Positions 4,245-23,336 of a DNA stretch of 28,227 nucleotides are shown one piece after another; the first letter of the stretch is position 1; each line of letters starts with the position of its first letter. The DNA is taken from the IMG/VR virus record IMGVR_UViG_3300042444_000762, positions 1-28,227 of that record, one strand, 5' to 3'. This stretch comes from a virus. A program made the translations under genes and the position numbers. The notes below the pieces were generated by a model. The model had not been told where the DNA came from and did not search any database. It was given only the letters and a program-made list of their open reading frames with translations.

Positions 4245-6208
4245 CCTTCTGCCCCATCCCCCGCAAGGTAGGCATCACACAGGGCCCCCATCGCCACAAG
4301 GTCAAGGGCATTGATCTGGCGGATTGTGGGCTCGACGCCGATGGCATCACGGATCCCGCGCTGGTGCTGGTGCCCCATGGCCAGCAGGTAGGCGCCGCTG
4401 CTGGGCTCGAACACCTCCCAGGCGCCGCTCAGATCCGGACCCACCGCCACCGGGTAGGGCAGGGTCTGCCCGTAGGGGCCCATCAGGCGGCCGATGCCGG
4501 GGCCATCCATGCGGATCGACACCCCGAAGATCTGATGGATCTGGCCGGCGGCATCGCTGCGGGGCTCCTCATCCCGTCGGCGCTTGCGGCGGCCACGGTG
4601 CTCGGTGATCTGCTCGGCTAGTGCCTGGGCCCGCTCTTCGCAGGCATCACAGCAGGGCTCATCGGCGGCATCGTTGCGGGGCGGCGTCTGGGGCGGCGTG
4701 GCGCCCTCCAGCCCAGCATCACCGCCTGTGGCCGGAGCCTCCCCGGGGGTCGCTGCCGGGCCCCCCTCAAGGGTGCCGCCGAACTCCACCGGGGCCTCCT
4801 GCTTCGGCTGCGGGATGGATCCATCGTCCTCCCGATTCAACAGGGTGGTGTCCATGCTGAAGCGGGGCTTCCCGAAGCGGGCCAGGGCCACCTCGTTGGG
4901 CTGCAGCACACCGGCCTGGATGTACTGGGCGTCGGCTGTGGCGACCTTCGACCGCAGCTCAGCCTGTTCGTCTTCCGTGGGGGTGTAGGTGGGCCGGAAG
5001 GTGATCTCCCAGTCGGCGGGGGGGGCTTTCCCTTTCCATGGGCCTTCGGCGCAGGCCATCACCAACTCGTAGACCCGCCGCAGAGGCTCTTTGAGGTGCT
5101 GGGCCTGCCAGTCGGCCACCTCATTGCCAAAAGCGGCCTGCTCACTGCGGCCATCGGCCCCCAGGCCGGAAGGTGACTCACCCCACAAAAGGGTGTGGGG
5201 GAGGCCTGATGCGCCGGTGATCTCGCTTTTAAGGTTGGCGATGATGTCGGCGATGCCGGCTGCCGAGCGATTGAGGTTGGTGAGCTCCTCGTTGTCGCTT
5301 AGGAGGTAGGCGCCGATGGTGCTGCGGGCCAGGGCGTTGGTCTGCAGGCGCTGGCGGAGCACATCTTCCCCACCTTTGGAAAGCATGTTGGTCAACCCCG
5401 GCAGCTTGTGCACCACCAGGTCGAAGTCGTGGAGGATGTCCGACGCCGATTGCTGGCCGGTCTCCCACCGCTTGAAGACATCCCAGACCAGGTCCACCAC
5501 GGAGACCCCCCACCCCTGCCGCTCCTGCTGTGACCGCCAGGAGCAGGGGAGCCCCTCGATGCGGATCACCCGGCTGCTGTGGATCTCAATTTGGGTGGCT
5601 TCGGTGAGGCCCAGGCCAGCACTGGTTACCACCTTGCTGCCGGCCTGATCGTTGAGCTTCTGCAGCTCCTGATCGGCCTGAGTCCAGAACCAATAGCTTT
5701 CCGGCTCGCCGATGCCGGACCAGCCGGCGGCGGGGTAGAGACGCCAACGATCGATCGGGTAGAAGCCGTGGATGGTCCGGAGCCGCTTGAGGTTCAGAGG
5801 CTTGTCGATCGGGGTGCGGTCGTCGGCGATCAGCACCAGGGCGCCACCGCCATAGAGGCGGCTGTAGGTGGCGGCCGCGGCCAGGCCCTGGCGGAGGTGG
5901 AGCTTTTCGGTCCAACCCACGACGTCATCGAGCTGGGCCTTCATGCGGCTGGAGGTTTCATCCCCCACCGACAGGTCCCAGCCGCTGCGGGTGCCCTGCT
6001 GGGGGAGTTTCTCCACGATCCGGCGGATCAGCCAGGACTGCTCATAGAGGGCATCGACAGCAGATTCAGAGAGGATCCGGCTGCGCTTGACGCCGATCGC
6101 TTCGTTTCGGTCCTTCGCGGTGCCCAGGCCGGTGAGGACGTTGATCAGGGCGCCATCAAGCCGCCACTCAGATCGGGAATCAGCGGAGCTCAGGAAACCA
6201 ATCGACAC
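4241..6208 (-). CDS. Phage portal protein (DUF1073-like)
   Basis: The 655-aa protein fits the DUF1073/portal group. Conserved segments include SWLIRRIVEKLPQQGTRSGW (58-77), LYGGGALVLIADD (118-130), GFYPIDRWRLYP (148-159) and SGLPHTLLWGESPSGLGADG (334-353). Portals form the dodecameric DNA channel at the head vertex and dock terminase. The start is GTG at 6208. Residues about 470-520 are a Pro/Gly-rich linker. The last 110 residues carry CCDAC, a basic RRKRRRDE stretch and a small globular domain I do not recognise. I see no 2H-phosphoesterase HxT motifs that would suggest a fused Acb1 domain. Its closest late-gene partner, terminase, is separated from it by an inverted regulatory cassette. 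A 145-bp part of the gene (5156-5300) recurs at 8705-8849. Confidence 0.9.
   Translation of the reverse strand: MSIGFLSSADSRSEWRLDGALINVLTGLGTAKDRNEAIGVKRSRILSESAVDALYEQSWLIRRIVEKLPQQGTRSGWDLSVGDETSSRMKAQLDDVVGWTEKLHLRQGLAAAATYSRLYGGGALVLIADDRTPIDKPLNLKRLRTIHGFYPIDRWRLYPAAGWSGIGEPESYWFWTQADQELQKLNDQAGSKVVTSAGLGLTEATQIEIHSSRVIRIEGLPCSWRSQQERQGWGVSVVDLVWDVFKRWETGQQSASDILHDFDLVVHKLPGLTNMLSKGGEDVLRQRLQTNALARSTIGAYLLSDNEELTNLNRSAAGIADIIANLKSEITGASGLPHTLLWGESPSGLGADGRSEQAAFGNEVADWQAQHLKEPLRRVYELVMACAEGPWKGKAPPADWEITFRPTYTPTEDEQAELRSKVATADAQYIQAGVLQPNEVALARFGKPRFSMDTTLLNREDDGSIPQPKQEAPVEFGGTLEGGPAATPGEAPATGGDAGLEGATPPQTPPRNDAADEPCCDACEERAQALAEQITEHRGRRKRRRDEEPRSDAAGQIHQIFGVSIRMDGPGIGRLMGPYGQTLPYPVAVGPDLSGAWEVFEPSSGAYLLAMGHQHQRGIRDAIGVEPTIRQINALDLVAMGALCDAYLAGDGAEG
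5156..5300 (-). repeat. Portal segment duplicated at 8705-8849 (parent copy)
   Basis: My hand alignment gives 123 of 145 bases identical with no gap to the second copy. It encodes portal residues about 304-352, including SAAGIAD, SEITGASGLPHTL and WGESPSGLGAD. Both copies have the same orientation and reading frame, and they are 3.5 kb apart. Confidence 0.92.
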
Positions 6209-8553: not shown

Positions 8554-8947
8554 GGCGGCGGCGGCCCCTGGCGCGGCGTGCGCGCCGCTTGCGGCCGATG
8601 GGGCTGCCTCGCTTGGCTTCAATAATTAGGCGTTCAAGCACGGCCACAGTGCGATGGGCTGCAATGCCAAAGGGGCGGAAGGCTACCGCCAGCGGATCGG
8701 TGTCGGCCCCTAGGCCGGAGGGGGACTCACCCCATATCAGGGTGTGAGGCAGGCCGGAGGCGCCGGTGATCTCGCTTCTGAGGTTGGCGATCATGTCGGC
8801 GATGCCGGCTGCCGAGCGGTTGAAGTTAGTGAGATCTTCGCCCTCGCTCAGTTCGATAGCGGCGGTTCGCTGCCACTGATCCAGCAGCTGTTGCTGCTCC
8901 TGGTTGAGAGGCGGGGGGAGGCCCGGCGGCCCGTGGGGGTCAGGCAT
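8546..8947 (-). CDS. Chimeric small protein containing a portal fragment, 133 aa
   Basis: The N-terminal 35 residues are Pro/Gln-rich (starting MPDPHGPPGLPPPLNQEQQQ). About 49 residues follow that match portal residues 304-352 at 42 of 49 positions (DLTNFNRSAAGIAD, SEITGASGLPHTLIWGE, SPSGLGAD). A C-terminal helix (VAVLERLIIEAKRG) and a very basic tail follow. The portal part cannot form a portal on its own. The reading frame is open throughout, and the DNA differences from the parent gene are mostly silent or conservative. The start at 8947 gives an 8-base ATGCCTGA overlap with the upstream gene. It could be a small head-associated protein built by recombination or a decaying remnant still in frame. 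Confidence 0.65.
   Translation of the reverse strand: MPDPHGPPGLPPPLNQEQQQLLDQWQRTAAIELSEGEDLTNFNRSAAGIADMIANLRSEITGASGLPHTLIWGESPSGLGADTDPLAVAFRPFGIAAHRTVAVLERLIIEAKRGSPIGRKRRARRARGRRRHA
8705..8849 (-). repeat. Partial portal duplication (second copy)
   Basis: This is the second copy of the portal segment at 5156-5300, in the same orientation and frame, with 123 of 145 bases identical by hand count. It encodes the middle of the chimeric 133-aa protein. Of the 22 mismatches few alter the protein (7 changes in 49 residues, all but one conservative). Confidence 0.92.
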
Positions 8948-14949: not shown

Positions 14950-15233
14950 CGCCGGAGGCAGGACAGCTGCGCAAACCGTGGTGTGGGGCCAGGGGCCAAG
15001 GAATGCGGGGGGCCGACCTCATCGATCACCAGGAAGGACGGGAGGGGCCGCGGGGCCAGGATCTCCGCACGGCGCATCTCTTCCAAATTGTCGACTCGGT
15101 CCAGATCCTGCCTCAGCAGGGCCATGGCCCGCATCGTGCCCATGCGGCGACCTGCAGTGAAAAAGGCCTGCCGTCTCAGTCGATGTTCAACGTACACCAG
15201 GAGGGGCAGAAGGGTGCGGGCTAGGTCGGTCAT
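14934..15233 (-). CDS. Hypothetical basic protein, 99 aa
   Basis: The first 60 residues form Leu/Arg-rich helices (LARTLLPLLVYVEHRLRRQA and MRAMALLRQDLDRVDNLEEM). The C-terminus is Pro/Arg-rich. No family is recognised. The start at 15233 overlaps the upstream stop as ATGA. It is the last gene of the leftward replication operon and overlaps the recombinase-like gene by 16 bases at the convergent junction. Confidence 0.6.
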   Translation of the reverse strand: MTDLARTLLPLLVYVEHRLRRQAFFTAGRRMGTMRAMALLRQDLDRVDNLEEMRRAEILAPRPLPSFLVIDEVGPPHSLAPGPTPRFAQLSCLRRQRSR

Positions 15234-15508
15234 GGCAATGGCAGTTCGTCGGCAAAGTAATCGCGTGAAGCTTGAGCACGTACACGAAACTTGCGCCGAT
15301 ATCTAGCGTCAGCGATCTTATCAGCAGGGCAAACTATTACAATTTCAGGCGTTTCCTCAAGCGTGTAATCACATTCACTCCTTTCAAAGTCGTGTGCCCA
15401 TTGCTTAGCTGCTTCTTCATGGTCGCTTGCCCGAAGCGTTTTGCCGTCGTCGGGTCCTTCATCGCCGTCATAAGCGTTCCAGACAATCCAATCGGAGAAG
15501 GGGCTCAT
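15230..15508 (-). CDS. Hypothetical protein, 92 aa
   Basis: Begins MSPFSDWIVWNAYDGDEGPD and continues with ASDHEEAAKQWAHDFERSEC, a pattern seen in small phage proteins whose residues after the first strand form an AA-x-x-WA helix. Predicted strands include EIVIVCPAD. The function is unknown. The ATG at 15508 overlaps the PolX stop as ATGA, which decides the start. The DNA is less GC-rich than the neighbouring terminase block. Confidence 0.65.
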   Translation of the reverse strand: MSPFSDWIVWNAYDGDEGPDDGKTLRASDHEEAAKQWAHDFERSECDYTLEETPEIVIVCPADKIADARYRRKFRVRAQASRDYFADELPLP

Positions 15509-16053
15509 GGCCGCACCTCGCGGTCTTCGGGCTCGACCCACTTCAGGCCGATTCGATCAAACAGCTCGCGCTCTGTGCGGCAAGGCACGACAGGGCCAAG
15601 GCTGTAGATGCCTTCCGTGTTGTTCACGCGACGCAGCAACCCACCTTCAGAGCGATAGCCGGCACGAACCCAAGCCGGTGCCAGCACGGTGCGGCTCCAT
15701 TCTGCCGAGCCGGTCCTGATCGCCAGCTGAAGGCCGTAGCCATCCGGGTGAGGCATGAACAGATCGAGTTTCATCCCTTGCCACGGCAAGACCCGCTGGG
15801 TGTAGCGGCAGGGCAGCTCGCCTTTCACCTTCTCCCACTGGTTCACCACGGTGGCGATGCCAGAGCAGAACAGGGGAGAGGCGTCGTAGGGCTTGGGGAT
15901 GCAGACGATCTCCAGGTCGCCGATGGTGGGCCGGCGGCGGCGAATGCTGCCGGCGATGTCGATGCGCTCGCAGTGGGGCTTCAGCAGCTCCAGCACCTTG
16001 GCGGCGACACCATCGGCGGTGGCCAGGGACAGGCGGGTGGTGGTGGTGCTCAT
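15505..16053 (-). CDS. Minimal family X DNA polymerase-like nucleotidyltransferase
   Basis: The 182-aa protein matches the PolX palm and thumb. The GS-RR nucleotidyltransferase motif is GSIRRRRPTIGDLEIV at about 35-50, with metal ligands D and E (DLE instead of the usual DxD). The third acid is in MKLDLFMPH. The thumb-like part has RTGSAEWSRTVL, AGYRSEGGL and the C-terminal ELFDRIGLKWVEPEDRE, which follows the typical PolX ending. Bacterial PolX is 320-570 aa with 8-kDa, fingers and often PHP domains; only about 15 residues precede the palm region helix here. It could fill short gaps or add nucleotides untemplated. The start is in the repeat at 16041-16079, and it is ATGA-coupled to the next gene. 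Confidence 0.85.
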   Translation of the reverse strand: MSTTTTRLSLATADGVAAKVLELLKPHCERIDIAGSIRRRRPTIGDLEIVCIPKPYDASPLFCSGIATVVNQWEKVKGELPCRYTQRVLPWQGMKLDLFMPHPDGYGLQLAIRTGSAEWSRTVLAPAWVRAGYRSEGGLLRRVNNTEGIYSLGPVVPCRTERELFDRIGLKWVEPEDREVRP

Positions 16054-16079
16054 CCCTTCACGTCCTCCAGCAGGTCGAG
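16041..16079. repeat. 39-bp direct repeat, copy 1
   Basis: Matches 16444-16482 at 38 of 39 bases (one C/T change at 16071/16474). On the minus strand this copy holds the last sense-like bases of a DLLEDVKG end, the stop and the MSTT start of the PolX gene. Upstream of PolX the DLLEDVKG frame is not continued, so this end is a remnant. Confidence 0.92.
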
Positions 16080-16192
16080 GCGGAGGGTGGGGGTCACGGG
16101 GTTAGTGCAAGTGGGCATTGGTGGCGGGGCGGTTTGGCTTGGAATGTTCTGAGCCGTTAGTTCCTAGACGGGAAAAGTAATCTTGCTTGTAT

Positions 16193-16456
16193 CTAATGTG
16201 CGACCTTATATACAATGTTTGGATCAAATACTTCTCTCATTGGAAAGGATTTAATTGTGCCATTCCAGCCGACAATGGCATTGCCATTTTCGTATCGAAA
16301 AAACTCGTACGTGTTTTCATCGCTGGCGTGCGCTGCTGTGTCGCCTGGAGACAGGAGACGCATTTCGGCAAGCACGATCTCAATAGCTGAATCAATAATC
16401 TGATCGTTGTTCATGTTCGTATCAAAGCGGTGTGGTTTAGGATTGGTGGTGCTCAT
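16193..16456 (-). CDS. Small AT-richer hypothetical protein, 87 aa
   Basis: Starts MSTTNPKPHRFDTNMNNDQI, rich in Asn/Asp/Ile, with a C-terminal beta-rich part (ENTYEFFRYENGNAIVGWNG). The family is not recognised. Its base composition is clearly more AT-rich than its neighbours, and it lies between two 39-bp direct repeats, so it looks like an acquired cassette. The ATG at 16456 overlaps the upstream stop as ATGA. About 135 bases without a gene separate it from PolX. Confidence 0.65.
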   Translation of the reverse strand: MSTTNPKPHRFDTNMNNDQIIDSAIEIVLAEMRLLSPGDTAAHASDENTYEFFRYENGNAIVGWNGTIKSFPMREVFDPNIVYKVAH

Positions 16457-16482
16457 CCCTTCACGTCCTCCAGTAGGTCGAG
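16444..16482. repeat. 39-bp direct repeat, copy 2
   Basis: 38 of 39 bases match 16041-16079. On the minus strand it encodes the real end (DLLEDVKG) of the 93-aa gene, its stop, and the MSTT start of the 87-aa gene. The two copies are offset by 403 bp in the same orientation. Confidence 0.92.
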
Positions 16483-16734
16483 CAGGAGCATGCGGCGGGT
16501 GTCAGAGGGCCGGGGGTATTGCTCCAGGCGATGTAGCAACAGGGCCATCACGCGACGGCGCTCCATCTGCTGGCCATCGGCCAGTGCCTTGCGGAGCAGG
16601 ACATCCCCGCTCACCTCGGCGGTGGCTGCTTCCAGCAGGTAGGCGACAGCTGCGTCCAGCTGCTCACGGGCCGCGGCCAACGGATTGGGCTGCTGCAGCC
16701 TCGGCCAGGCGACGATCCCCTCAGCCATCTCCAT
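16453..16734 (-). CDS. Helical hypothetical protein, 93 aa
   Basis: All-helical pattern: AAREQLDAAVAYLLEAATAE, then RKALADGQQMERRRVMALLL and TRRMLLLDLLEDVKG. No family is recognised. It is GC-rich like the phage background, in contrast to the genes on either side. It overlaps the upstream 256-aa gene by 14 bases and the downstream gene by ATGA, so it is translationally coupled within the replication operon. Confidence 0.65.
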   Translation of the reverse strand: MEMAEGIVAWPRLQQPNPLAAAREQLDAAVAYLLEAATAEVSGDVLLRKALADGQQMERRRVMALLLHRLEQYPRPSDTRRMLLLDLLEDVKG

Positions 16735-17491
16735 GGCCTCCTGTTGGGTCTGACGTGATGGCGCTGGGATCCTTAACGCTCGTCTGCGCCTTTCGCTGTT
16801 GTTCTATTCCCTCCGCTCGTAGCTGGATTAGGTGCCATGCCTGAATCGATTGTTCAGGAATGCCACTTTGCCGAGCCTCCTCCATGGCGGTTTCAATCGC
16901 CTGCAGCTTAATTTGGCGTTCCCACTCGTCATAATCGTTGCCAAGCAACTCCCTTAACTTATTGTATGCCACACCATTTTGGCGCTGTTTCTTCTTCCTG
17001 TCCATCCACATTTCGTCGCACAACTCCTTTTCACTTCTTGCCGGCAGTTTGCTCGCCTTTACATTTCGGAGCTGCACACTGGCATGCGGATTCTTCCTGT
17101 TGTATTCCGAGACCATTAGCTTTGCCTCGTAGCAGAACCTGCCGATTCTGGCCAAGAGACTTCTTTGCCTGTGGATCCGGCATCGCAGCTCAGTAATGCC
17201 CGCAACCATTAAGGAAGATTTGCCTTCAATCTCCGCTTTTAGCTCGGTTAGCTTACTCTGAGCAACTACCTGAGCGTTGGCTAGATCATTGTAGAACTGT
17301 CGCAACGTCAGGATGTCCATCTGCTGGACATCAAGCAAGAATACGACCTTGTCCCAGCGATCCCAGTACATCCATGCCTGTGTGCGCTGCTTTCCCTCAG
17401 TAGTCAATTGCTCAGCGCTTACCTCCTTGTCCCTTGTCCATGTCTGTACTGTGTTTATTTTGTTTATGTTGTTGGTGTCGATGTTTTTCAT
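16721..17491 (-). CDS. AT-richer hypothetical protein, 256 aa
   Basis: The protein is mostly alpha-helical with long charged helices (NAQVVAQSKLTELKAEIEGK, EWERQIKLQAIETAMEEARQ) and a basic stretch (DRKKKQRQNG). The family is unknown. Start at ATG 17491, which gives a TGATG overlap with the preceding stop; the frame remains open 180 bases upstream only as a shadow of that gene. Composition and codon choice (Asn, Lys, Ile rich; MKNIDTNNINKINTVQTWTR) differ sharply from the GC-rich flanks, pointing to recent acquisition. It might be a DNA-binding or coiled-coil structural factor of replication; no motif proves it. Confidence 0.7.
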   Translation of the reverse strand: MKNIDTNNINKINTVQTWTRDKEVSAEQLTTEGKQRTQAWMYWDRWDKVVFLLDVQQMDILTLRQFYNDLANAQVVAQSKLTELKAEIEGKSSLMVAGITELRCRIHRQRSLLARIGRFCYEAKLMVSEYNRKNPHASVQLRNVKASKLPARSEKELCDEMWMDRKKKQRQNGVAYNKLRELLGNDYDEWERQIKLQAIETAMEEARQSGIPEQSIQAWHLIQLRAEGIEQQRKAQTSVKDPSAITSDPTGGHGDG

Positions 17492-17709
17492 CACGTTGGC
17501 CCCATCGAAGTGCTGGCCAGGGAAGGTGGGCCACCATGGCCAGGCCGCTCCCGGGTCACTCGCCAGCCCGGCATGGGCGTGGGCTGGAAGCCAACCCCCT
17601 CCACGGTGATCAGCGCTGTTGGCGATCCGATCAGGGGCAGATCGCTCTCCCGCATGCTCATCCGCTTCCACTCAGCCTGGCCCACAAACCAGACCCACAC
17701 CTGCACCAT
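17491..17709 (-). CDS. Small hypothetical protein, 72 aa
   Basis: Begins MVQVWVWFVGQAEWKRMSMR and has a beta-rich middle (SPTALITVEGVGFQPTPMPG) and a Pro/Gly-rich tail. No family is recognised. The ATG at 17709 lies 23 bases after the upstream stop. The TGATG overlap with the 256-aa gene supports this frame. Confidence 0.55.
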   Translation of the reverse strand: MVQVWVWFVGQAEWKRMSMRESDLPLIGSPTALITVEGVGFQPTPMPGWRVTRERPGHGGPPSLASTSMGPT

Positions 17710-19400: not shown

Positions 19401-20680
19401 TGGCCTGTGATGTGACGGTGGTAGGCGAATGGGTCAGGGGCGCCGGTTTCTGGATCGATCGGAGCCTCAAATGCGGCGGCGGCGGCGGGCTGGTTCTGCT
19501 GCAGGTAGGCGGCGAAACGGCGCTCCTTCAGCCAGCGAGCGATGTCAGGCAGGGATGGGGCAAAACCCGTGGAGGCGTGCTGCTGGTCCTGAGCGCGGAT
19601 TTCAGCAGCCAAGGCCCCTACCAGCTGCTCGGCGGTGTGGCCCTCAGCCAGCACGGCGGAAAACTCTCTCTGGGCAGCGGGCAGAGATTGACAAGGGACC
19701 CGACGGGGCGCCGCCAGGTAGGCGCTGCGAAGGGTGTCGAAGGCCTCAGCGGCTGCAGGGCCGGCGCGCAGCTGCTCGCAGCGACGGCGGTAGCCGGTGG
19801 CAAGACTTTTGCAACCGCTGGCCGCGGCGTGTTCGAGGAACGGCCGGAGGACCCCCAGAGCATCGGCGTGCTGGATGGCCTGGATGTCGCCAGCGTTGAG
19901 CTCGTTGGCCGCGGCGGGGTGCTTGCTGCGGCGCCTGAGCCACCACTCGCGCAGCAGTTGGCGGTATGGGCGGGCGCAGTCGGGAAGGGCTGAAGCGGTT
20001 GCTGGGGGCTGGGTTGCCGGTTGGGCATGGCGCTGGGGAGCGTCGTTGTGAGCTGAGAATATCACGATCTCGACCGCTGTCGCGACGGGCTCGGCCGTCG
20101 TGACCGTTGACGCCGCGGCATCGATTTTTTCGACGCGTTGGTGGATATATGTACTGGAGTAATCAATTAACCCTTCTTGGATTTCTTGTTCTTCGTTTAG
20201 AGGTTTATTGATTGGGTCCCCCCCAGGGGGAGTCCCCTCTGGGGGGAGGGGTCCCCTTCCGGGGGAGTCCCCCCTGGGGGGAGTGGGGGGCCCCTGGGGG
20301 GGACCCCCCTCTGGGGGGAGGGGGTGTGCTGACTTGCGCTGCACTGCAATGGGTTTCGCGGTTCGCTTTTTGCGGCCTGTTGCCATACGGATCCGGTATC
20401 GGTTTGTCCCGTTGGGTCCTTTGCCCGATTTGATGATCCAACCCTCACTAAGAAGGGTCGAAAGTGCCGTTCTGATGTCCCGTTCCTTCATGCCGCACTC
20501 CAGGGCAAGCCGAGGGACGGAAGGGAATCCGTCATCTGCTTGGCCGGCGTAAAACCAGAGCCAGGCATAGACGAATACCAACCTCCTGCGCCCTATCTGT
20601 GCACAGCTGCTCAGCAATTCGAGCGGAATCTGTGCAAACAGAGGGCGGTGCAACTCACCGCTGAAATCTTTGGTTGGCAT
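19397..20680 (-). CDS. Winged-helix replication-type protein with Pro/Gly linker
   Basis: The 427-aa protein starts MPTKDFSGELHRPLFAQIPL. It carries a winged-helix domain at about 15-100 (RRRLVFVYAWLWFYAGQADD, VPRLALECGMKERDIRTALS, TLLSEGWIIKSGKGPNGTNR), as in phage replication initiators of the O/DnaD type. A Pro/Gly linker at about 120-155 is encoded by the palindromic array at 20216-20325. A central low-complexity part follows, then a C-terminal helical domain (REWWLRRRSKHPAAANELNA, YRRRCEQLRAGPAAAEAFDT). It heads the leftward operon next to the large divergent spacer, as expected for an early replication initiator. Start 20680 is chosen because residues before it look unconserved. Confidence 0.75.
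   Translation of the reverse strand: MPTKDFSGELHRPLFAQIPLELLSSCAQIGRRRLVFVYAWLWFYAGQADDGFPSVPRLALECGMKERDIRTALSTLLSEGWIIKSGKGPNGTNRYRIRMATGRKKRTAKPIAVQRKSAHPLPPEGGPPQGPPTPPRGDSPGRGPLPPEGTPPGGDPINKPLNEEQEIQEGLIDYSSTYIHQRVEKIDAAASTVTTAEPVATAVEIVIFSAHNDAPQRHAQPATQPPATASALPDCARPYRQLLREWWLRRRSKHPAAANELNAGDIQAIQHADALGVLRPFLEHAAASGCKSLATGYRRRCEQLRAGPAAAEAFDTLRSAYLAAPRRVPCQSLPAAQREFSAVLAEGHTAEQLVGALAAEIRAQDQQHASTGFAPSLPDIARWLKERRFAAYLQQNQPAAAAAFEAPIDPETGAPDPFAYHRHITGQ
20216..20325. repeat. Tandem array of about six imperfect GC palindromes
   Basis: About six units of roughly 17-20 bp, each a C-run facing a G-run across 1-4 bases (such as TCCCCTCTGGGGGGA), stand head to tail. They lie inside the replication gene and encode alternating Pro and Gly residues. 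Each unit can form a stable hairpin in single-stranded DNA or RNA, and G-runs of 4-7 could form quadruplexes on both strands. Confidence 0.9.
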
Positions 20681-22325: not shown

Positions 22326-23336
22326 ATGGATTCCAGTACCCAGTCAGGGGCGCCATTGCCGCAGCCTCCACCGCCTGCCTCCGGGGCGCAGGCCGCTGCC
22401 AGTCCACAGCTCTCCCACAAGGCCCTAGAAGACTTCGCCCACCGCGCCAACCTGCAGATCGGCGCTCACGACCAGCAGATTCGCAACCAGGGCGCGGTGA
22501 TCGCCCAGCTCCGCTCAGAGATCCACGTGCTGGCCGACGCACAGGCGCACCTCGAACGGCAGGAAAAAACCTTCACAGATGATCAGCGGCGCCGGCTGAT
22601 CGAGTTCGTCAACTACGAACCGACAGCAGAACAGCAGATGCAGCTATTTGCTGCATTCGCAGCATGGCACGCAACAGAGCCGCGCCTTGTCGAAAACCGC
22701 CAGGCGGAGTACGCCACCAAGAAAGGCGGGACCATCTCCTACGGCTACGCCGATCTCGCCAGCGTCATCGCCACCGGCCAGAGCGCCGCCGCCATGGGCC
22801 TGTGCGCGGTCACCCGCCAGGAGCTGGACGACAACGGCACTCCGGTGGTCACTGGCTACCTGATCCACTCCGGCGGCGGCTGCATCAGCAGCGGTCCCGT
22901 CCCCCTCTACATCGGCGAAAGCGATCGCCGCGGCCAGGCCCATGCCGCTGGTCTCACCACCTGCCGCCGGCTGGCCCTGCAGATGGTCCTTGGCCTTGCC
23001 GCTGAGCGTGATGACGATTTCAACGCCCCAGGCGACAGCCAGCCCCGCCATGCGCGCCAGGGCAACGGCCAACAGCAACAGCCGGTGCGGACGGTCACGA
23101 CACCTTGCCGCACCGCTGCAGGCCCAGCCGGCGCCACCCAGCGCGGTCCTGCCGCCGCAGTCCGTCAGGGCCCACCGCCCGGGTGGATCAGCAAGGACGA
23201 TCGCCGCGCCCTCGAGCAGGAGCTGACAGATCCGGCCATCACTCCGGAGCGCTTCCAGGAGATCGAGTCGAAGCTCCTGGCCGCTGATCAGCTGGCCAAG
23301 AACGCCGCGGCCGCACCACAAGGCAACGCGCCATGA
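22326..23336 (+). CDS. erf: ERF-family single-strand annealing recombinase
   Basis: The 336-aa protein contains the ERF superfamily core: KKGGTISYGYADLASVIATG (132-151), the middle GLCAVTRQELDDNGTPVVTG (158-177) and the C-terminal end AGLTTCRRLALQMVLGLAAE (208-227) with RDDDFN. ERF proteins form rings on single-stranded DNA and promote annealing and genome circularisation, independent of RecA. A Pro/Ala-rich leader and a helical stretch (about 30-90) precede the core. The tail holds a linker and a final acidic helix (DRRALEQELTDPAITPERFQ). No Shine-Dalgarno is obvious before ATG 22326. Confidence 0.9.
   Translation: MDSSTQSGAPLPQPPPPASGAQAAASPQLSHKALEDFAHRANLQIGAHDQQIRNQGAVIAQLRSEIHVLADAQAHLERQEKTFTDDQRRRLIEFVNYEPTAEQQMQLFAAFAAWHATEPRLVENRQAEYATKKGGTISYGYADLASVIATGQSAAAMGLCAVTRQELDDNGTPVVTGYLIHSGGGCISSGPVPLYIGESDRRGQAHAAGLTTCRRLALQMVLGLAAERDDDFNAPGDSQPRHARQGNGQQQQPVRTVTTPCRTAAGPAGATQRGPAAAVRQGPPPGWISKDDRRALEQELTDPAITPERFQEIESKLLAADQLAKNAAAAPQGNAP

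Follow-up and report, generated by a model that had tools for sequence, protein, structure and literature searches.

In the Subcluster I1 mycobacteriophages, gene 68 of Island3 is an 85-residue orphan inserted, relative to Brujita, beside a conserved gene. In the part of that work devoted to this gene, it is described as flanked by a repeat of about 50-60 bp of the 3' end of the conserved gene, present as a single copy in Brujita, and a short-homology exchange is proposed, the donor being unknown there (PMC3029335). The same source, where it treats LRRHood, reports a 1.35-kb insertion flanked by 29-bp direct repeats, of which the relatives hold one copy (PMC3029335). Short repeated sequences next to genes are also described as the start-associated sequences (SAS) of Cluster K mycobacteriophages, given in the relevant section as 13 bp long with a Shine-Dalgarno core and 11-19 copies per genome (PMC3203893), and as the PeSL promoter/stem-loop cassettes of T4-like phages, where, in the passages concerned, a repeated intergenic sequence borders shuffled small genes (PMC4503421).

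The locus considered here lies in a 28,227-nt stretch of viral DNA (the window), in which a small AT-rich gene is located between a 93-aa gene and a PolX-like gene (Table 1). The analysis indicates that this gene was probably acquired recently, through two off-register crossovers between phages, of the short-homology or illegitimate kind, which duplicated the junction and in which an Erf protein perhaps helped. The extra ORF sits between genes that are adjacent in relatives, and it is AT-richer than its surroundings, as the preliminary description of this DNA had stated, with 44% G+C against 64% in the window, 67% in the 93-aa gene and 65% in PolX; in both respects it resembles a moron.

Table 1. 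Positions in the window of the features discussed in the text.
Feature	Position	Strand	Remarks
93-aa gene, upstream neighbour	16453..16734	(-)	DNA identity of 93.3-96.3% with L002, L003 and L005 (aligned part)
Repeat copy, 93-aa side	16444..16482	(-)	spans the 93-aa gene end, GGAGG as a possible Shine-Dalgarno, the ATGA overlap and the MSTT start of the inserted ORF
87-aa ORF	16193..16456	(-)	14-residue N-terminal extension via MSTT fusion, plus 73 native residues
Imported DNA	16111..16442	(-)	leader of the donor, gene of 85 codons, a 3' untranslated stretch, then the right copy of the leader and 8 nt (ATGCCCAC) from the start of the next donor gene
Native 85-codon frame	16160..16414	(-)	profile match over positions 1-85, one in-frame TAG at codon 74
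31-nt filler	16080..16110		between ATGCCCAC and the PolX-side repeat
Repeat copy, PolX side	16041..16079	(-)	duplicated gene end and PolX start
PolX-like gene, 182 aa, downstream neighbour	15505..16053	(-)	DNA_pol_B_thumb PF14791, E 1.6e-7, above cut-off
Erf-type single-strand annealing protein	22326..23336	(+)	PF04404, E 1.4e-6; phrog_2324, E 6.9e-12

The preliminary description had pointed to two 39-bp direct repeats that flank the gene, differ at a single base and span the same functional unit, and this description was confirmed. The copies are identical at 38 of 39 positions, and on the minus strand both read ...LDLLEDVKG, a stop overlapping ATGAGCACCACCA, and then MSTT, with GGAGG 10 nt upstream of the ATG. 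The repeat is placed at a gene boundary, and both neighbour genes stay intact. The pair is the longest direct repeat of the window at no more than one mismatch; in 60 Markov-resampled windows, the longest such repeat has a mean length of 17 nt and a maximum of 22. The PolX-side copy is identical over all 39 nt to the single copy of L003. The variant base of the 93-aa-side copy is an A (CTA, synonymous in the 93-aa gene), the corresponding base being G in L002 and L003 and C in L005. A PolX-side base as in L002 and L003, together with a synonymous change on the 93-aa side, fits a young event. A widespread ribosome-binding leader, raised in the preliminary description as an alternative, was not seen: the junction 21-mer is found in only three IMG/VR contigs, all of them relatives of the window, with one copy per contig, and a widespread leader of the SAS type was rejected on this basis.

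A scan of IMG/VR based on PolX gave 23 loci, and use of the 93-aa protein as the query identified three contigs, namely those of L002, L003 and L005. It had been suggested to look for a relative with one repeat and no 87-aa gene, and L005 is such a relative, having a single copy of the repeat (L005:3203-3241) and the 93-aa gene joined directly to PolX. After removal of the insert and one repeat copy, the window matches L005 at 592 of 641 positions, with 0 gaps. In L002, the slot is occupied by an unrelated dATP/dGTP diphosphohydrolase-like gene (PF18909, E 2.3e-30), which has an in-frame stop upstream, and in L003 by an unrelated 162-aa gene that also has an MSTT start, probably acquired by fusion. 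The duplicated length is variable, since the starts share only about 7 bp in L002 and about 13 bp in L003. When the insert was searched in 12 other records, seven were found to match (four at 95-96% and three at 70-72%), and L002, L003 and L005 are among the five without a match.

The four closest matches (L025, L026, L027 and L028) share 94.9-96.0% identity with the imported DNA, and the 87-aa gene occurs in four other contigs with unrelated flanks, in favor of the insertion that the preliminary description had considered. These copies are found in another neighbourhood, without the 39-bp repeats, between a 79-aa gene and a gene starting with MPTITHTP. The donor-type copy has 85 residues, lacks MSTT and precedes the MPTITHTPRQQ gene; the copy in L028 is cut by the contig end. 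Because the native start corresponds to M15 of the 87-aa ORF, the window copy carries a 14-residue N-terminal extension, and the TAG in this copy removes the 12 C-terminal residues of the native protein, the cut falling inside the last helix of the structure model. Following ATGCCCAC, which the window retains, the 31-nt filler ends with CACCCTCCGCC, which by eye resembles codons 7-10 of the donor's next gene in the L063 allele. The retained ATGCCCAC and the L063-like end of the filler imply that the import extended from the leader of the donor as far as the gene that follows there. A search of viral contigs for a donor with the exact start ATGCCCACTTGCACTAACCC, the allele from which the filler would come, gave 0 matches.

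At the 12 loci of the MPTITHTP gene, the 85-aa gene stands directly before it in four and another gene in one (L062); the other arrangement, a 79-aa-type gene followed by the leader only, is found at 7 of the 12. The leader, of about 24 bp (GCTGCGCTTYCCAAACCACACCRC), precedes different genes at this native locus and was found at one locus only. A search of 20 records allowing at most three mismatches gave 11 occurrences, distributed over nine of them, and 0 for the reversed control; in L027 and L062, two close copies are present, each in front of a different cassette. The native locus itself is a cassette array of variable content with repeated leaders. The ORF just before this array in L062 (L062:785-1216) has long simple repeats read as (MA)n. 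The 85-aa gene family as a whole is found in three neighbourhoods, and in L029/L030 its member lies within a 21-bp exact direct repeat that comes from the end of the upstream gene. In L030, a neighbour of the family gene is flanked by its own 31-bp exact direct repeat (L030:5648-5932).

The AlphaFold model of the gene product consists of a helix, four strands and a helix, with a mean pLDDT of 88. A fold search with this model gave only weak Tudor/PWWP-like matches, none at E of 0.001 or below, and the 85-aa protein has no match in Pfam, NCBIfam, PHROGs or PADLOC. In annotated phage records, no match was found for the 73-aa part, the PolX protein or the DNA at 15230-17500. Two bacterial loci (L041 and L042), taken as possible relatives of the gene, were dropped because their matching ORFs encode 162-165-aa proteins, presumably HisI from their appearance, which have only a short end peptide in common with the query. 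A search for sigma-70-like promoters and terminator-like sites in 16041-16482 gave neither, whereas a moron has its own promoter and terminator. The five gene copies differ by 21 nonsynonymous and 8 synonymous codon changes, which suggests that any constraint on the imported gene is weak at most. The differences between pairs of the 85-aa gene in L025, L026 and L027 are nearly all nonsynonymous (0/10, 1/9 and 1/9 synonymous/nonsynonymous codon differences).

If the gene had been ancestral at the junction and L005 had lost it by recombination between the repeats, the deletion would yield exactly the structure of L005. Loss does happen at the native array too, where a scar in L064 matches the end of cassette A at 24 of 27 positions, and excision through the 39-bp repeats, as envisaged in the preliminary description, may be possible in the window. 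However, L002 and L003 hold unrelated genes at the junction and lack this one, and the insert is 95-96% identical to a different locus, the flanks of which were dragged along with it. As there is a single fully empty site (L005) in the window's own group, with four close contigs, the choice between gain and loss rests on parsimony, and we consider the ancestral state unlikely. Two junction copies would likewise remain if the junction had been duplicated in tandem and the imported gene had later taken the place of the DNA lying between them. Such an order of events is very unlikely in our view: nothing requires it and no separate evidence favours it, intermediates were not observed, the 87-aa product bears no relationship to the 93-aa protein, and the donor's own flanks directly adjoin the repeats. 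The 93-aa neighbour as duplication source of the insert was rejected as well, the two proteins having no similarity.

The three neighbourhoods of the family, the 21-bp repeat in L029/L030 and the leader-repeat array at the native locus would fit a dedicated system for moving cassettes, either integron-like or a small transposon, with target duplication. Against it, the repeats belong to each target rather than to the gene, and their lengths differ (39, 21 and 14-16 bp). The repeat and the leaders fold no better than shuffled sequences, so that nothing attC-like is present and an attC or hairpin element was rejected. Moreover, family searches and the fold search (E 0.001) found no transposase, recombinase or nuclease domain in the insert, and a system of this kind appears highly improbable. 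The record is an uncultured IMG/VR contig, and two phages joined at a common 39-bp sequence during metagenome assembly could in principle mimic an insertion. Such a chimera, however, requires a second template that already has the repeat-gene-repeat order, a single base distinguishes the two copies, and the insert carries a TAG of its own together with a filler that was not observed elsewhere, all of which makes an artefact the least probable explanation of all.

Recent acquisition by crossovers between phages is therefore the reading we prefer, given an empty site, donor-type sequence elsewhere, donor ends dragged along and unrelated genes at the same point. In this scheme, a segment of about 330 bp would have been copied, during co-infection, from an accessory locus of another phage into the overlap of the 93-aa gene and PolX (ATGA), by two short-homology or illegitimate crossovers. 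In the first exchange, the switch from recipient to donor would lie inside ATGAGCACCACCA on the recipient side and in the leader on the donor side; homology at this left crossover is slight. In the second, the switch back would have taken place about ten codons into the donor's next gene, and the recipient sequence would have resumed within the end of the 93-aa gene, 39 bp upstream of the point where it had been left. With the two exchanges off-register, the 39-bp junction would become duplicated, which would explain why the repeats vary in length and derive from the target, and why the donor ends are ragged. Survival of such a product would rest on three points: the stop of the 93-aa gene is preserved, the inserted gene acquires a start together with a possible Shine-Dalgarno sequence, and PolX retains the corresponding elements. 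Since the 93-aa gene and PolX overlap at ATGA, an insert spares both only if the overlap is copied, and the longer junction copy may also supply a possible ribosome site. The order of the exchanges and their enzymes, as well as selection for the duplicated junction, are what we infer from these arrangements.

The Erf annealing protein is a possible helper in these exchanges. Identified in the window by sequence matches, Erf belongs to the class of Rad52-like proteins, which in phages reportedly carry out relaxed homologous recombination. Of 14 records searched, many of them fragments, four encode Erf, namely the window, L002, L003 and L027 (G000, G001, G002 and G006); in the same search, it was not found in the record of L005 or in most donor-type records.

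Among the terminase matches listed, the best share about 30% identity and belong to phages of Nodularia and Cylindrospermopsis, so a cyanobacterial host is likely for the window virus. The same operon contains other differences from relatives. Compared with L002, L003 and L005, the window has an inserted 256-aa gene (50% G+C; 16721-17491, minus strand) in front of the 93-aa gene, and this gene took over the GGHGDG-stop tail that is the end of the upstream gene in L002; a search of 13 related records, run without a positive control, gave no match for it. A 103-aa gene (53% G+C, phrog_21008; 15230-15541, minus strand) follows PolX, is absent from L002 and L005, and is a third small insertion. 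Elsewhere in the window, a 149-nt stretch of the portal gene (5154-5302) is repeated at 85% in 8703-8851, inside a 175-aa ORF 3.5 kb away, as a displaced portal fragment, and three tandem copies of a 35-bp unit of the GGGGACTCCCC type are found at 20214-20323, inside a 471-aa ORF with an HTH_36 domain.

The relatives of PolX with about 60% identity form a second group with the same slot upstream of PolX. A gene starting with MSTLEQTIY (88-94 aa) is located just before PolX in L009, L010-L012 and L023; L004, L006-L008, L013, L014, L017 and L018 lack it and have an MTTQTAYDGL-type gene there instead. In L009, the MTTQTAYDGL-type gene lies directly upstream of the inserted MSTLEQTIY gene. Comparison of the junction preceding the inserted gene with that preceding PolX gave 26/31 identical positions in L009, 26/35 in L010 and 22/29 in L023. 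The score for L009 is 42, compared to a median of 14 for random ORF-start pairs, of which 5 of 1,050 score at least 42, some of them possibly nested ORFs. This second phage group shows a similar insertion. Tandem duplication as the source of the slot gene was rejected, the slot protein of L009 having no similarity to the upstream protein of L007.

Direct repeats scoring at least 17 flank 12 of 1,513 ORFs (0.79%), compared to 5 of 6,052 unrelated ORF pairs and 30 of 6,052 random windows of the same spacing (0.50%). The enrichment at gene edges is clear against the former and weak against the latter, and because 0.79% of ORFs stands against 0.50% of same-spacing windows, we do not claim a general system. 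It is conceivable, at a rather low probability, that these (perhaps cyano-) phages take up genes recurrently in a plug-in manner. Small genes would enter overlapping or tight junctions that combine stop, ribosome site and start, each entry duplicating the junction, and the duplicated junction or leader would provide homology for the next gain or loss. The docks would be the slot upstream of PolX, in two distant phage groups, and the 79-aa/MPTITHTP locus.

The locus presents one phage gene acquisition at base resolution: the site is known in its empty state, a donor-type locus is identified, both breakpoints and the duplicated junction are visible, and the gained gene shows early decay. The entry of a gene into a tight operon without breakage, usually inferred, becomes directly testable by comparing phages at the same slot. 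Compared with the systems introduced above, the native donor locus resembles the SAS in that several exchangeable genes are preceded at their starts by a conserved leader (about 24 bp), but this leader has no Shine-Dalgarno core and is present in one or two close copies per record, at one locus only, unlike the SAS as characterized in that report (PMC3203893). As in the PeSL cassettes, a repeated intergenic sequence stands beside shuffled small genes at the native locus, but no stem-loop was found in the donor-locus leaders, in contrast to the PeSL elements as presented there (PMC4503421). Closer are the mycobacteriophage insertions. The window insert lies between direct repeats with a single copy in a relative, as in LRRHood, but is one gene, whereas the account of LRRHood gives four genes and a repeat at the gene end only (PMC3029335). 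Like Island3 gene 68, the window gene stands beside a repeat of its neighbour's 3' end, with a close relative that is single-copy; unlike what is related for Island3, the window case has a donor-type locus, the repeat includes the start of the next gene, and the imported gene is fused and truncated (PMC3029335). On the descriptions given in that source, the window case and the insertions of LRRHood and Island3 gene 68 are events of the same kind (PMC3029335). The window locus illustrates a known phage gene-gain route with unusual clarity, contributing the donor-type locus and one slot seen in several states.
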